A program made the position numbers and the translations under genes. From Gemmatimonadaceae bacterium (GTDB lineage Bacteria > Gemmatimonadota > Gemmatimonadetes > Gemmatimonadales > Gemmatimonadaceae), in assembly GCA_016742275.1 (NCBI GenBank), contig JACVCD010000009.1, positions 124,001 to 188,000 on the forward strand: a DNA stretch of 64,000 nt, in the 5' to 3' direction. Positions 11,639 through 18,706 of this stretch are shown piece by piece. Positions within the stretch are counted from its first letter, which is position 1. The number at the start of each line of letters is the position of its first letter. The notes beneath the pieces are model-generated. The model ran no database searches, was not told the DNA's origin, and was given only the letters and a program-made list of their open reading frames with translations.

Positions 11639-14314
11639 ATGACGTCGCAGCTTCTGCGGCCGAGCGATGCGCTCGCGCTGCATCATGATACCGTGCGTGA
11701 AGTGTTGCCCAATGGTCTCACGCTGCTGGTGCGCGTGGATCGTTCGGCACCGGTCGTTGCCATTGTCACGCATGTGAAAGCGGGATACTTCGACGAGTCG
11801 GACGACATTGTCGGCATCGCCCATGTGCTCGAGCACATGTACTTCAAGGGCACGCCCACACGTGGTGTGGGGCAGATCGCCCGCGAAACCAAGGCCAACG
11901 GCGGGTATCTCAACGCGCATACGATCTACGATCACACCAGCTACTACACGGTGCTGCCGTCGTCGTCGTTCGTGCCGGGACTCGAGATTCAGTTTGATGC
12001 GTATGCGCGCTCGGTGATCGACGCCGAGGAACTGGCCCGCGAACTGGAAGTGATTATCCAGGAGGCCAAGCGCAAGCGCGATACGGCAACTGCCGTGACC
12101 ATTGAATCGCTGTATGCGTTGCTACACGATCGCCATCGTATTCGTCGCTGGCGGATCGGTGAAGAAGACGCATTGCGCGGCTTTACGCGCGAGCAGCTGG
12201 TGAGTTTTTATCGCACATGGTATCGCCCGGACAACACCGTGCTGTGCGTGGTGGGTGATGTGGATGTCGAGACCGTGCGTCGCGAAGTCATGGCGCGACA
12301 TGGCCAACTCGAGTCCGGCGTTCCCGCGCGTGATCGTGGCCCCAGAGAATTGGCGCTTCCCGGTCTCCGCCACCGTGAATGGAGTGGTGACATTGCACAG
12401 CAGCACACGGCGTTCGGTTGGCGGGCGCCGGCGTTGTCGCACCCTGATTCGGCGGCGCTCGATCTGGCCGGTGTGGCGTTGGGATCGGGACGTGCATCGC
12501 GTCTTTATCGTGCCGTGCGTGAACAGCAGCACGCCAGTTCAGTGTCGGCGTGGAATTACACGTCGGACGATGTGGGTGTGTTCGTGCTGCATGCAGAGGG
12601 ACCGTCGGCCAGCGCACGGGCCGCCGCGCAGGGGATGTGGCGCGAGCTCGATGCGGTGCGCACCGATGGTTTCCGTCAGAGTGAAGTCACGCGCGCGCAG
12701 CGCATTCTCGAGGCGCGATGGCTACGCCGGCTCGAAAGTATGGATGGACAGGCGCAGTACCTCGCGTCGTGGGAAGCAGAGGGTGGCCTGGGCCTGGCTT
12801 CACAGTACTACGATGCGGTGATGTCGCTCGATCGTGGTGCACTGGGCGACGCCGTACGTGCGCATCTCGATCCCGCGCAGGTGAGTGTTGTCTCGTACCG
12901 CCCAGATGGTACTGAGGCGCTGGCCGATACGGCTGACGACATTCGTGAGTTGCTTGTGCAGGCCGAGGGGCACGGCAGTGCCGTGTTGGCGCCGTCGCAT
13001 GTGCCGACACCGTCGAGCGCCACGATTGCGGCGGCGCTGCGTGAGACGGAGGCGCCCGCTCCGGTGGGGCATGTCGATCATGGTGTGCATGTGTTTCACA
13101 CACGCGGTGGTGTGCCGGTACTCATTCTGCCGCGCCCGGGATCGCCGCTCGTCAACATCGGAGTGTTTCAACGCGGTGGAGCGGTGCTGGATGCGGCGGC
13201 GCAGGAAGGTCGTGCGCGTCTGATGACGCAGGCCACGCTCAAGGGATCGCGCCATCGTACTGGTGCACAGATCGCTGAAGCGGCAGAGGACATGGGCAGC
13301 AGCATTGGTGTCAGCGCTGCGCTGGAGAGTCTTGGCTGGTCGATGTCCGTGCCGGTGCGCCACGTGCGAACGGCCGTCGAATTGTTGGCCGAAGTGGTGC
13401 AGGAACCCGGTTTCCCGGTCGACGGTGTGGAGACCGAGCGTGCGTTGGCGCGCACGGAGCTCGCCCGTGTGCGCGACGACATGTATCGCTGGCCCATGCG
13501 CCTTGCTACGGCCGCCGCGTATGGCACGCACCCGTATGCGCGATCGGTGATCGGGACGGAGGAGTCGCTTGCGACGCTGGATGTGAATGCACTGCACGCA
13601 TACCACGCGACGCATGTACTCAATGGTCACACCGTTCTAGCAGTCGTTGGCGATGTGGAGCCGATGGTGACGGCGCAGTTGCTTGATACCGCTTTCGATC
13701 GCCTGCGGTTTGCATCGCAGCCCACGGTGTCGTCCACGCCATGGACGGATGCGCGTCGCGGTGATGAAGACTCACGCGCCAAGCAGCAGACCGCATTGGC
13801 GTTGCTTTTCCCGGGCCCTGGCCGGACCGACAGCGATCGCTATGCGGCGCGTGTGCTGTCCAGTATCGCGAGTGGTCTTGGCGGTCGCTTCTTCGAACAA
13901 CTCCGTGACAAGCAGTCGCTGGCCTACACGGTTACCGCATTTCCGATCGAACGCATGGCTGGCGGCGCATTTGCTGCCTACATCGCCACGTCGCCGGCGC
14001 GAGAAGCGGAAGCGCGTGAGGGACTGCTTGGTGAGTTCGCGCGATTTGTGGATGCGCCGCCCAGTGAGGAGGAAATGGAACGGGCGCGGCGCTATCTCAT
14101 CGGCACCCATGCCATTGCGCAGCAGTCGGGCAGCGGGGTGCTGGCAGACATCGTCGATGCGTTTCTGTTTGGTGAAGGACTGGCGGAACGCGACGATGAA
14201 CCGCAGCGACTGGCGCAGGTTTCTGCGGCCGATGTGCACGCGGTTGCGCGGCGGTACTTCGATGCCGGCCGTGTGGTGGAAGGGGTCGTGCGGGGTGTCA
14301 GTGCGGGCCGTTAG
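11639..14314 (+). CDS. M16 family zinc metallopeptidase, two-domain
   Basis: The 891-aa protein contains two M16 halves in one chain. The N-terminal half has the inverted zinc motif HVLEH (His62, Glu65, His66) and the downstream acidic residues of the family, so it should be active. The C-terminal half (from about residue 480) lacks HxxEH and ends with a GPGRTDSDRYAARVLSSIASGLGGRFFEQLRD-type segment, as expected for the inactive partner domain. No signal peptide is evident, so it may be cytosolic, or exported by a route not visible here. M16 enzymes cut peptides or process small proteins. Its last four bases overlap the convergent membrane-protein gene. Confidence 0.9.
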   Translation: MTSQLLRPSDALALHHDTVREVLPNGLTLLVRVDRSAPVVAIVTHVKAGYFDESDDIVGIAHVLEHMYFKGTPTRGVGQIARETKANGGYLNAHTIYDHTSYYTVLPSSSFVPGLEIQFDAYARSVIDAEELARELEVIIQEAKRKRDTATAVTIESLYALLHDRHRIRRWRIGEEDALRGFTREQLVSFYRTWYRPDNTVLCVVGDVDVETVRREVMARHGQLESGVPARDRGPRELALPGLRHREWSGDIAQQHTAFGWRAPALSHPDSAALDLAGVALGSGRASRLYRAVREQQHASSVSAWNYTSDDVGVFVLHAEGPSASARAAAQGMWRELDAVRTDGFRQSEVTRAQRILEARWLRRLESMDGQAQYLASWEAEGGLGLASQYYDAVMSLDRGALGDAVRAHLDPAQVSVVSYRPDGTEALADTADDIRELLVQAEGHGSAVLAPSHVPTPSSATIAAALRETEAPAPVGHVDHGVHVFHTRGGVPVLILPRPGSPLVNIGVFQRGGAVLDAAAQEGRARLMTQATLKGSRHRTGAQIAEAAEDMGSSIGVSAALESLGWSMSVPVRHVRTAVELLAEVVQEPGFPVDGVETERALARTELARVRDDMYRWPMRLATAAAYGTHPYARSVIGTEESLATLDVNALHAYHATHVLNGHTVLAVVGDVEPMVTAQLLDTAFDRLRFASQPTVSSTPWTDARRGDEDSRAKQQTALALLFPGPGRTDSDRYAARVLSSIASGLGGRFFEQLRDKQSLAYTVTAFPIERMAGGAFAAYIATSPAREAEAREGLLGEFARFVDAPPSEEEMERARRYLIGTHAIAQQSGSGVLADIVDAFLFGEGLAERDDEPQRLAQVSAADVHAVARRYFDAGRVVEGVVRGVSAGR

Positions 14315-15864
14315 CGCTGCGCCCGCGCCTCTTTGAAACGCCGCGCCGCCAGACCGACAGCACGCACGGCGTCGCGTTCGCGGCCGTTGGATGCACGCAG
14401 CCCAAGCCAGCCATTGTCGTCGGCTGGCTCGCCAATGATGGCGCCCGTGATCCACGGCTGACGTGTCGCGAACGCGAGACTGCGGCGAATGGCAGCGGTC
14501 TGCGCATCATCCCCATGCGCGTGCGGCAGTCCTCCCACATGCACCAGCCAATGGGGCGGTATGGCTCCGCGCGCTGCGGGCATCGCCGAACGATCGAACA
14601 CGGCACGTTCATGCCACCGTGTGAGTGCGCGTAGTCGTGCATCCACTGCCGGCAAGCCGGAGAAGGACGGGTAGACCATGGCACCCACCAGCTCCACGGG
14701 TGAACCGGGCGCCGTCGCCCATGCGTACACGGAGCTGTCGGTGGCATCGAGGTGCGTGGCGCTCCACGCGAGCACGGTACGTGGGCGCACACGCGTGACG
14801 GTGGCGCTGCTTCGCAGCAGCAAGGCACGCCACCAGTTGGCTGTTGGCGGCGCCGCGCCAAACCACTGTGGTACGGGATCACCCAACGCCGGAAACAGCA
14901 CATCAGGACGCAGACGCTCCAGTACGCGCTCGATGGTGCGAAGACGTTCCGGGCTATCCGGTGCGCCCGGATTGCGTCCCAGCGCCATGGCGACGGCGAT
15001 GCGCACACTGTCCTGCCGCAGCGGCTCTATCGTTTGCGCGATAGCATCGAGACTGCTGTTGTTGAGTGGTTCGTCGCCAAGCAGGATGAGCGCGACATCG
15101 GGATCAAAGGCTTCGATCAATCGAGCATCGGCCTGCACGCGTCGCGCCGTTGGTGCGCCGTCCAGCGTGGGATAGAGACGAATGCCAAGCAGAAAATCTC
15201 CGGCTGGCCGCGCCTGCATAGGCTCGATATCGGTTTGCGCGTACGTGCGCACGGCGGCCACGCCGCGCGGCCACTCGAGAACCAGCAGGGTGGTGAGTGC
15301 CGTCGCCGATAGCACCAGCACGGCGCGCACGGCGCCCGAAAGTTTCCATCGCGCCGGATATGCTGGCGCGAGCATGGGCACGAGTGTGGTGAATGGCGAC
15401 ACGAGTGCGGCGCGACCCACCGTGATACCGACGATCACATCACGCGCAGATACGGCAGCCTGCAGAGCATTCGGTGCTGCACCACGGGTCGCGACGAGAT
15501 AGTCGCCGAGTGCAATGGCGGCGAGCACGATGTCATACAGCAGAATGGGAATGGCAACGAGCGGTGAGACGAGTCGTTTGCCAAGCGCGACCATGACCTG
15601 CAGCGCGTAGGCTGCTGCAACCACCGGCAGTAGCCAGGTGATCCCGGAAATCGTGCGCGCGCCGGCTTCGATACCGGCGGCGACCCCGATCACCACCGAC
15701 GGCACCACCAGCAGGCCGCAGAATGCTGTCAATTGCGTGAAGAGACGAGGCGCCTCACGGCGGGAGGCAATCCACCCGGCCAGGGCCACGTCCCACGCCA
15801 GCACCGCCGCGGCAATGGTGACCACGACGAGCGGCAACGGATCTCTCCACCATTCCGAACTCAT
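14311..15864 (-). CDS. Polytopic membrane protein with C-terminal barrel-like domain, unknown function
   Basis: I do not recognise this 517-aa protein. The N-terminal ~215 residues hold about six hydrophobic helices. The remaining ~300 residues are soluble and alternate short beta strands with helices (GIRLYPTLDG, VALILLGDEPL, RIAVAMALGR, DVLFPALGDP, VELVGAMVYPSF, PHWLVHVGGLPHAHG, WITGAIIGEPAD). This resembles a TIM-barrel, glycoside-hydrolase-like arrangement, which I infer from pattern alone. No catalytic acid pair can be assigned with confidence. It is convergent with the M16 gene, sharing 4 bp at the stops, and divergent from the phosphatidyltransferase gene. Confidence 0.75.
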   Translation of the reverse strand: MSSEWWRDPLPLVVVTIAAAVLAWDVALAGWIASRREAPRLFTQLTAFCGLLVVPSVVIGVAAGIEAGARTISGITWLLPVVAAAYALQVMVALGKRLVSPLVAIPILLYDIVLAAIALGDYLVATRGAAPNALQAAVSARDVIVGITVGRAALVSPFTTLVPMLAPAYPARWKLSGAVRAVLVLSATALTTLLVLEWPRGVAAVRTYAQTDIEPMQARPAGDFLLGIRLYPTLDGAPTARRVQADARLIEAFDPDVALILLGDEPLNNSSLDAIAQTIEPLRQDSVRIAVAMALGRNPGAPDSPERLRTIERVLERLRPDVLFPALGDPVPQWFGAAPPTANWWRALLLRSSATVTRVRPRTVLAWSATHLDATDSSVYAWATAPGSPVELVGAMVYPSFSGLPAVDARLRALTRWHERAVFDRSAMPAARGAIPPHWLVHVGGLPHAHGDDAQTAAIRRSLAFATRQPWITGAIIGEPADDNGWLGLRASNGRERDAVRAVGLAARRFKEARAQR

Positions 15865-16575: not shown

Positions 16576-16839
16576 TCAGACCGCTGCGGGTTCCGGGCGC
16601 TTGGCGGGCTGCGCGAAGCGCTCACCTAAAGTGCGCAGCTCGGCGAATTCGTTCGCCTTGAGCTCCGGATACCGATTCTGCAGGTAGACCATCGTGTTGT
16701 CGAACCAGTCCTTCTGGTCCTGCGGGTGACATCCAATCACCCCACACTGCATGATCTGCTGGAACAGCTCGTCACGGGCCTCCTGATACGGCGAGGGCAC
16801 CATGGGGTCACGACGCGGACGAAGCTTGGGCTTGGCCAT
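16576..16839 (-). CDS. Small hypothetical protein
   Basis: The 87-aa soluble protein is not recognised. It has a basic Lys/Arg/Pro N-terminus (MAKPKLRPRRDP), then a helical stretch containing two Cys (QIMQCGVIGCHPQDQKDWFD) and an aromatic NTMVYLQNRYPEL helix. The Cys-x5-Cys-His arrangement might bind metal, but this is speculative. The ATG at 16839 is chosen because AGAGGAA lies immediately upstream on the minus strand; an upstream in-frame start at 16890 would add a poor Arg-rich extension. It ends near a bidirectional hairpin. Confidence 0.65.
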   Translation of the reverse strand: MAKPKLRPRRDPMVPSPYQEARDELFQQIMQCGVIGCHPQDQKDWFDNTMVYLQNRYPELKANEFAELRTLGERFAQPAKRPEPAAV

Positions 16840-16970
16840 TTCCTCTGGGTAGTACGTCCAACGCGCTGCGCGGCGATTCCGACACAGCAAGAAAAAGTTA
16901 ACTGATGAGACACCCGGATCCTAGGGGTGGAACCCATCAATTGCGGGCTCAGACAACGCCTACGTCGAGA

Positions 16971-17849
16971 CTACGAAATCCAATCGCTGATCGCTGAAGC
17001 CAGGGCCATCGGAGCAATTTCCGGCACCAGACCGCCACTCGGCGTATCGACCACCACAGGGTACAGGCGGCAACTGGGAAGCCGGCCACGCCAGCGTGTC
17101 TCATAGTCAACCGGATTCGGGCTGTTGCCGTCACCGGATCCGGCGGCTTCGCCAGACTTTCCCTTGCCATACCACAGCAGGATGTCCGTTTCGAGAAGCT
17201 CGAACGTGGACCGCTGCTCCTCCGTCAGTGTCACGGTGCTGGCCAATTGCAGCAGCCGAGCCGCTCCGTCCGGCCCGACGAAGGGCGCCAGATGCCGCGC
17301 TACGAGTCGATCCTCCATTGGAGCACCGGTGGGCATGGCGCGCTGCAGAAATGGCTCCAGCAGCGGTCTGGCGCCAAACAACGCATTGGCGCTGAGCGCG
17401 GTGGCGGCCGTGGTGCGCTGGAGTGCCCGAATGGACGGACCGGGGAGGGCGTCCGGATCGGAGGGCTCGATCAGGGCCACACGCGCCACGCGTTCCGGTG
17501 CACGACTGGCCAGCAACAGGGCTACCAGTGCACCCAGCCCCTGGCCGACAACCGTAACCGCTCCAAGTCGCAGTGCGGTGAGGGCCAACTCGACATGTGC
17601 CGCCTGATCGCCGGGCGACGTTCCCAGTTCACCGGCCTGCTGCGACTCGCCGTAACCCAGGAGATCGATCGCGACCACGGTATACCCACTTTCGGCCAGA
17701 AGGGGCACGACTTGGCGCCAGATGAAGGCGCTGGTGCCAAAACCGTGCAGCAGCACAATGGCCGGCCCACCGTATCCGGTGCGCTCCACGTGCAGCGTCC
17801 GGCCTTGCACGCTGCCGGCGAGCGGGATGTACAAATGGTCGGTGTACAT
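16971..17849 (-). CDS. Alpha/beta-hydrolase-fold protein lacking the usual Ser and His
   Basis: The 292-aa protein clearly has the alpha/beta-hydrolase fold: an oxyanion strand LLHGFGTSAFIWRQVV (about residue 33), VVAIDLLGYGES, and the nucleophile-elbow strand near residue 100. The elbow reads GQGLG instead of GxSxG, so the nucleophile Ser is Gly104 (codon GGG). The C-terminal segment that normally reads GH before LVPEEAP is SGGLVPEIAP, so the catalytic His is missing too. The fold is retained and hydrolysis by the usual triad is not possible. It may be a binding or scaffold protein, or use other residues. It starts at ATG 17849 with a TATCCT hexamer 6 nt upstream. Confidence 0.88.
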   Translation of the reverse strand: MYTDHLYIPLAGSVQGRTLHVERTGYGGPAIVLLHGFGTSAFIWRQVVPLLAESGYTVVAIDLLGYGESQQAGELGTSPGDQAAHVELALTALRLGAVTVVGQGLGALVALLLASRAPERVARVALIEPSDPDALPGPSIRALQRTTAATALSANALFGARPLLEPFLQRAMPTGAPMEDRLVARHLAPFVGPDGAARLLQLASTVTLTEEQRSTFELLETDILLWYGKGKSGEAAGSGDGNSPNPVDYETRWRGRLPSCRLYPVVVDTPSGGLVPEIAPMALASAISDWIS

Positions 17850-17989: not shown

Positions 17990-18706
17990 GTGGCCAAGGT
18001 AACGCCCAAGAAGAAGTCGAACACCGGATTTCTCGCCGTCATCGGCATCATTCTGATCGCGGGTGGCGCCGGTATCTGGACGACGATGCAGAAGAAGCCG
18101 GTGTCCATCGAAGCTGCTCCGGGCGCCGCGCTTCCTGCGGCTGAGGGTTATCTGCGCGGCAATCCGAATGCGCCGATTTCCATCATCGAGTTCGCTGACT
18201 TCGAGTGCCCGGGCTGCGGACAGTTTGCCACGTTGCAGGGGCCGGACATCAAGACGCGCATCGTCGATGCGGGCCTCGCGAACTTCCGCTTCTTCGACTT
18301 CCCGCTCACGGCCATTCACCCGAACACGATTGCCGCGCACATGGCCGCCGCGTGCGCCAACGATCAGGGCAAGTTCTGGGAAATGCATGATCTGATCTTC
18401 GCCGGTCAGTACGACTGGAATGGTCAGGCCACCAGCAATCCGCGCAAGTTCATGGATGGCTACGCCAAGCAGCTGGGTCTCGACATGACGGCGTTTGCGT
18501 CGTGCTTCGATACGCAGAAGCACCTCCCGCGTATTCAGGCCAATGCCAAGATGGGCCAGGAGCGCGGTGTGGGTTCCACGCCGACGATCATGATCAACGA
18601 TCGTCTGTATCCGGGCGGTTTGTCGGCCGATCAGATCAAGAAGATCGTGGATTCGCTCACGGCGGCGATTGCTGCGGCTCCAGCTGCTCCGGCCGCCGCG
18701 AAGTAA
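17990..18706 (+). CDS. DsbA-like thioredoxin-fold protein, membrane-anchored
   Basis: The 238-aa protein has a Lys-rich N-terminus and one transmembrane helix (GFLAVIGIILIAGGAGIW), then a periplasmic DsbA/DSBA-like thioredoxin domain. The active site is CPGC (Cys73, Cys76) in EFADFECPGCGQFA, and the cis-Pro loop is GVGSTPTIMIN. An NPRKFMDGYAKQLGLD helical insertion is typical of the Gram-positive and Actinobacteria-like DsbA group. It should make or isomerise disulfides in exported proteins. The GTG start has GGAG five nt upstream, so this gene is conventionally leadered. An Ala-rich tail ends the protein, and the stop codon lies inside the first unit of a tandem repeat. Confidence 0.88.
   Translation: MAKVTPKKKSNTGFLAVIGIILIAGGAGIWTTMQKKPVSIEAAPGAALPAAEGYLRGNPNAPISIIEFADFECPGCGQFATLQGPDIKTRIVDAGLANFRFFDFPLTAIHPNTIAAHMAAACANDQGKFWEMHDLIFAGQYDWNGQATSNPRKFMDGYAKQLGLDMTAFASCFDTQKHLPRIQANAKMGQERGVGSTPTIMINDRLYPGGLSADQIKKIVDSLTAAIAAAPAAPAAAK

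Follow-up and report, generated by a model that had tools for sequence, protein, structure and literature searches.

The gene abh, which lies in the 64,000-nucleotide stretch of Gemmatimonadaceae DNA analysed here (the window), probably encodes a dispensable pseudoenzyme that does not hydrolyse substrates and whose pocket has been remodelled, as judged from sequence comparison. The locus amounts to a natural experiment, run more than once, on the persistence of a fold whose catalytic residues are gone: Arg has widely taken the place of the base His in a bacterial family, and Gly has replaced Asp at the elbow at least twice, once with strong constraint kept and once with constraint relaxed. The gene and its three altered catalytic positions are as follows.

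16971..17849, minus strand: abh, putative alpha/beta-hydrolase-fold pseudoenzyme of 292 amino acids, assigned from the ORF, Pfam, the fold model and synteny with orthologous loci
17538..17540, minus strand: Gly104 (codon GGG), nucleophile elbow
17157..17159, minus strand: Lys231, β7 acid position
17031..17033, minus strand: Gly273, catalytic-His position by alignment, within SGGLVPE

The genome that contains the window is assembled in 33 contigs (4.57 Mb). The abh ORF begins with ATG and has no internal stop codons. The protein matches Pfam Abhydrolase_1 at 7.7e-23, and its AlphaFold2 model has a pTM of 0.87 and a mean pLDDT of 83.6, with values below 50 at residues 232–237; the fold together with the Pfam matches (Abhydrolase_1/6) places it in the alpha/beta-hydrolase fold superfamily. 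An earlier note on this DNA had described a well-kept fold, a GQGLG elbow with a GGG Gly codon at the nucleophile position, and SGG in place of the usual GH before LVPE. The Pfam match and the model agree with the first of these, the elbow is indeed G102-Q-G104-L-G106, and Gly273 aligns with the catalytic-His column. A third change had gone unnoticed, in that the acid after β7 is also gone and Lys occupies its column. With Gly both at the elbow and at the post-β8 His position, the protein lacks a Ser-His-acid hydrolase triad, and with Lys at the acid position it also lacks the Asp-His-Asp/Glu triad of epoxide hydrolases.

Some abh match was found in 145 of the 148 genomes of the bacterial family. 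The best match was at 3.6e-29 or better in 113 of these, and a few of the remaining 35 may hold contig-edge fragments or diverged copies. In a profile search of 295 genomes of the class, orthologues scored at ~1e-76, all in one family, and other hydrolases at ~1e-48, with no scores between the two groups among the matches listed. A contig scan gave at least 80 loci, of which at least 47 (L038–L084) are orthologues by locus; the other loci matched at E 2e-18 or weaker. The recurring gene order is acs, small protein, dsbA, abh, small protein, CDP-alcohol phosphotransferase, hypothetical protein and M16 peptidase. Two of these genes flank abh in the window.

17990..18706, plus strand: dsbA, DsbA/thioredoxin-like (Thioredoxin_4), divergent neighbour and rate yardstick
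16576..16890, minus strand: small conserved protein, ORF of 104 amino acids, downstream of and co-directional with abh

Of the 47 orthologous loci among the matches listed, 45 have dsbA and 42 have the downstream small protein, and the remaining loci read as cut by contig or locus ends. Neither the 104-residue protein nor a 517-residue protein that is conserved in the abh locus (window 14311–15864, minus strand) matches a Pfam or NCBIfam model at 1e-3. The 104-residue protein is conserved across the bacterial family and is kept where abh is lost. The 147 orthologue rows extracted were reduced to 105 distinct ones by dropping identical core segments, and then to the 101 analysed by taking out four fragments (L061, L080, L082 and L084). 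These 101 aligned orthologues are a subset of the family's orthologues, all from one bacterial family.

The 101 rows show that Gly104 is not the family-wide state, which the alignment rules out: the elbow column holds 90 Asp, 9 Gly, 1 Asn, 1 Glu and no Ser. The β7 acid column contains Asp in 82 rows, Glu in 4 and other residues in 15, and the His column Arg in 76, Ala in 11, His in 5 and other residues in 9. With no Ser at the elbow and so few His, the family as a whole lacks the canonical chemistry of serine hydrolases. Asp-Asp-Arg is the most frequent triple (74/101). In every one of the 76 rows with Arg, the elbow is Asp and the β7 residue is acidic, and Arg never occurs without this pair, although the rows are related by descent and are not 76 independent events. 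Such co-occurrence is the pattern expected of a putative salt-bridged Asp-Arg-Asp set. In a rough tree with many unresolved nodes, the five rows with His fall within groups of Arg rows, so their His may represent a return from Arg. The Gly elbow is carried by the window, L009, L010, L019 and a separate five-member clade (L076, L077, L149, L184 and L185), so that Asp gave way to Gly on two or more occasions, in the window's genus and separately in that clade. In the five-member clade the elbow Asp, the β7 acid and the Arg are replaced together, by Gly, Gln and Ala.

The family more plausibly derives from Asp-nucleophile enzymes than from serine hydrolases, a reading to which paralogue states, alignments with solved structures and structural neighbours all point. 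Within the bacterial family, the nearest paralogues mostly read Asp-Asp-His, with some Gly-Asp-His, and Ser-Asp/Glu-His turns up farther away, in rows from the class's other families. Given these paralogues and the absence of Ser from all 101 elbows, the Ser-type starting point assumed by the earlier note, and with it serine-hydrolase ancestry, is disfavoured. In profile alignments to 5w15 and to an ancestral haloalkane dehalogenase, their Asp nucleophiles fall on the family's Asp column and their catalytic His residues on its Arg column; for 5w15 the placement was seen a second time. 5w15, an alpha/beta hydrolase fold protein of Burkholderia ambifaria, is the best PDB sequence match (9.3e-31 with the family profile) and superposes on an Asp-Arg family member with a Z score of 32.2; unlike the window protein it carries His (GHLVQED) and an Asp elbow. 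The closest structures are haloalkane dehalogenases, Cif-like epoxide hydrolases and fluoroacetate dehalogenases, with Ser-type C-C hydrolases nearly tied, and the best Foldseek matches in the PDB (E about 3e-17) are a Cif-like epoxide hydrolase and haloalkane dehalogenases.

Haloalkane dehalogenases carry an Asp nucleophile followed by a halide-binding Trp, and some of their subfamilies, like most of the abh family, have the acid after β7. Those among the best sequence and structure matches (AncHLD2/3/5, DbeA, DhaA and the HLD-III enzyme 8ooh) share fold and cap with the abh family and the elbow Asp with most of its members. However, the catalytic His is replaced in the family (Arg in most rows, Gly in the window) and the window protein lacks the Asp too. 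Identity as a haloalkane dehalogenase was rejected, since Trp follows the elbow in 1 of 101 orthologues (Gly104-Leu105 in the window) and the window protein has no catalytic His. The HGN Asn is Phe in 99 of 101 orthologues, and the NCBIfam NF002938 score is 84.8 bits against a cut-off of 241. One cap Tyr, perhaps equivalent to a member of the epoxide-hydrolase Tyr pair, is present in 93 of 101 rows and is His in the window. The top Foldseek match, the Cif-like epoxide hydrolase Cfl2 (Cfl1/Cfl2: 7jqx, 7jqz), has an Asp-type elbow like the abh family. Its authors state that it possibly is a pseudoenzyme and that its catalytic residues are retained (PMC8244358); by contrast, the window protein has lost His, acid and Asp.

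Evolutionary rates were estimated pairwise by the Nei-Gojobori method, with dsbA as the yardstick, over 70 distinct, de-duplicated loci in which both genes are whole. The abh/dsbA dN ratio ranges from 1.60 to 9.94 (median 2.16) in six pairs of the genus subclade and from 0.08 to 1.32 (median 0.57) in 28 pairs elsewhere, an approximately 4-fold rise without overlap of the ranges (Mann-Whitney p 1.5e-6). The ratio is inflated by dsbA, which appears to evolve more slowly within the genus and may be unusually slow there. The omega of abh is 0.24 in the genus and 0.11 elsewhere (p 0.015 or 0.020 depending on pair choice), with dS near or above 1 in several of the pairs. When restricted to pairs with dS below 1.3, the values are 0.18 (5 pairs) and 0.10 (20 pairs), with p 0.04. 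A version with redundant loci (7 genus pairs against 39 others) gave p 0.009 for omega and 3e-5 for the dN ratio. Outside the genus abh is strongly constrained, the other Gly clade included: its omega of 0.022–0.058 (three overlapping pairs) indicates that a triad-less protein can stay strongly constrained. In the window's genus, constraint on abh is relaxed.

Within the genus, abh was detected at 1e-40 or better in 21 of 30 genomes. In eight of the nine genomes without it, dsbA adjoins the downstream small protein, and the gap between the two flanking matches is 233–717 bases compared with about 1100 in the window. Four of the eight gaps (L241–L244) hold broken abh fragments, different pieces in each, and the other four (L245–L248) show no abh trace between the adjacent flanking genes. 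Neither flanking neighbour was found in the ninth genome, which is 59% complete. A tree of the two neighbour proteins requires at least six changes between intact and lost, with some weak placements and an outgroup that does not fall cleanly on one side. Because it has been deleted repeatedly, the gene appears to be dispensable in the genus. In ten genomes outside the genus that lack a clear orthologue, dsbA was found in all ten and the small protein in nine, at positions close together.

The pocket also differs in the genus. Among the 19 rows of the Gemmatimonas-like subclade, defined here as those in which Arg is lost, two positions stand out.

17466..17468, minus strand: Glu128, end of β6, the fold's alternative acid site; Glu/Asp in 19/19 subclade rows and 0/90 others
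17367..17369, minus strand: Arg161, cap helix (placed from the predicted model); fixed in 19/19 subclade rows

We suggest that this family-restricted clade descends from Asp-nucleophile alpha/beta-hydrolases of the haloalkane dehalogenase or epoxide hydrolase type. The pocket of its commonest, Asp-Asp-Arg state would hold putative Asp-Arg-Asp salt bridges and no His base, and such a pocket would not be expected to support turnover by the usual ester-intermediate route. In the window's genus this Arg was lost, usually together with the β7 acid, and two residues were gained, Glu128 as an acid at the end of β6 and Arg161 in the cap; in four genus rows, including the window, the elbow Asp changed to Gly. 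The remaining protein may serve as a ligand-binding or scaffold protein. Literature searches of titles and abstract openings found no paper on the abh family, which is weak evidence of absence.

A rival idea, in which the genus pocket was rebuilt for a new ligand and the fast evolution is adaptive, would make abh a selected receptor or binding protein. The uniform acid at position 128, the fixation of Trp226 and Trp253 as well as Arg161 in all 19 subclade rows, an omega well below 1, and the retention in 13 of 13 genus rows compared of the family-wide residues His20, Arg23, Arg45, Glu68, Gln82 and Arg185 are consistent with it. The chemical nature of Glu128 and Arg161, noticed post hoc, is suggestive of remodelling. 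Nonetheless, repeated deletion and pseudogene scraps extend to relatives of the rows with the new residues, the abh/dsbA dN ratio is raised, and the number of newly fixed positions is close to that of other clades: 11 in the genus, with seven near rows left out of the comparison set, against 1–10 in other clades of 7–20 rows and 22 in a very uniform five-row clade. A strong functional shift is not supported by a count so slightly above the clade control, and an adaptive receptor is possible but unlikely. The earlier note had favoured selection for a non-catalytic function over decay. That proposal is partly supported: it fits better elsewhere in the family, where the triad-less clade is tightly constrained, than in the window's lineage, which it describes poorly, given that abh there outpaces dsbA and has been removed or broken up in 8 of 30 genomes.

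Conversely, the window copy could already be functionless and merely unbroken so far. The fragments in four relatives and the clean absence from four others, together with a triad that is eroded and unconserved in the genus, fit terminal decay. However, the 292-residue ORF is intact with a confident fold model and family-specific residues are conserved. Against the nearest relative, L009, at 35% protein divergence, omega is about 0.29 for abh (0.095 for dsbA). The intact frame and this omega argue that the gene is not dead in the window's genome, and we regard terminal decay as quite unlikely.

It is improbable that the protein is still an enzyme that works by an unusual chemistry without Ser/Asp or His. 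Alpha/beta-hydrolase-fold proteins without Ser can have activities, as described in section 2.7 of PMC11878206, and the HGFG stretch is mostly kept, with His35 invariant in three aligned groups and Gly36 in 100 of 101 rows. Yet the usual triad places offer no conserved base or acid; within the genus the acid and His columns show free variation, and the elbow is variable as well.

Another reading concerns the relatives outside the genus, whose Asp-Asp-Arg members could be natural single-turnover covalent traps, the Gly lineages, the window's among them, becoming purely non-covalent binders later. The elbow Asp would attack an electrophile (a haloalkane, an epoxide or similar), and with Arg in place of His the ester would not be hydrolysed, so that the protein would serve as a scavenger or covalent sensor. 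HaloTag keeps its Asp nucleophile and has the base His removed; it is the engineered counterpart of the Asp-Asp-Arg state, although the window protein lacks the Asp as well. Engineered His280Asn/Ala mutants of fluoroacetate dehalogenase, found among the structure matches, similarly have Asp without the base His. Covalent trapping by the Asp-Asp-Arg form would make it nature's own version of an engineered labelling tool, a prospect that we consider very doubtful.

A sequencing or assembly error, or a single-strain loss, was ruled out: no supporting evidence was found, the Gly is common to L009 and L010 (65% and 64% identical to the window protein) and recurs in L019 and the five-member clade, and the orthologues with GxSxG and GH that the earlier note had named as its refutation are absent, none of the 101 having a Ser elbow.

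For a non-hydrolytic pseudoenzyme of this kind, automatic annotation of abh family genes as hydrolases or dehalogenases would probably be wrong. The same genome encodes a paralogue outside the window (L002:1438-2289; G000:C12:231990-232841) with a Gly elbow (GHGMGA) in which the acid and His are kept (DPFL, AHVAPEE). This Gly-Asp-His combination occurs in 23 of the 25 genus orthologues examined, with a match in 27 of 30 genomes, and the paralogue group represents a conserved dyad-only hydrolase-like protein.
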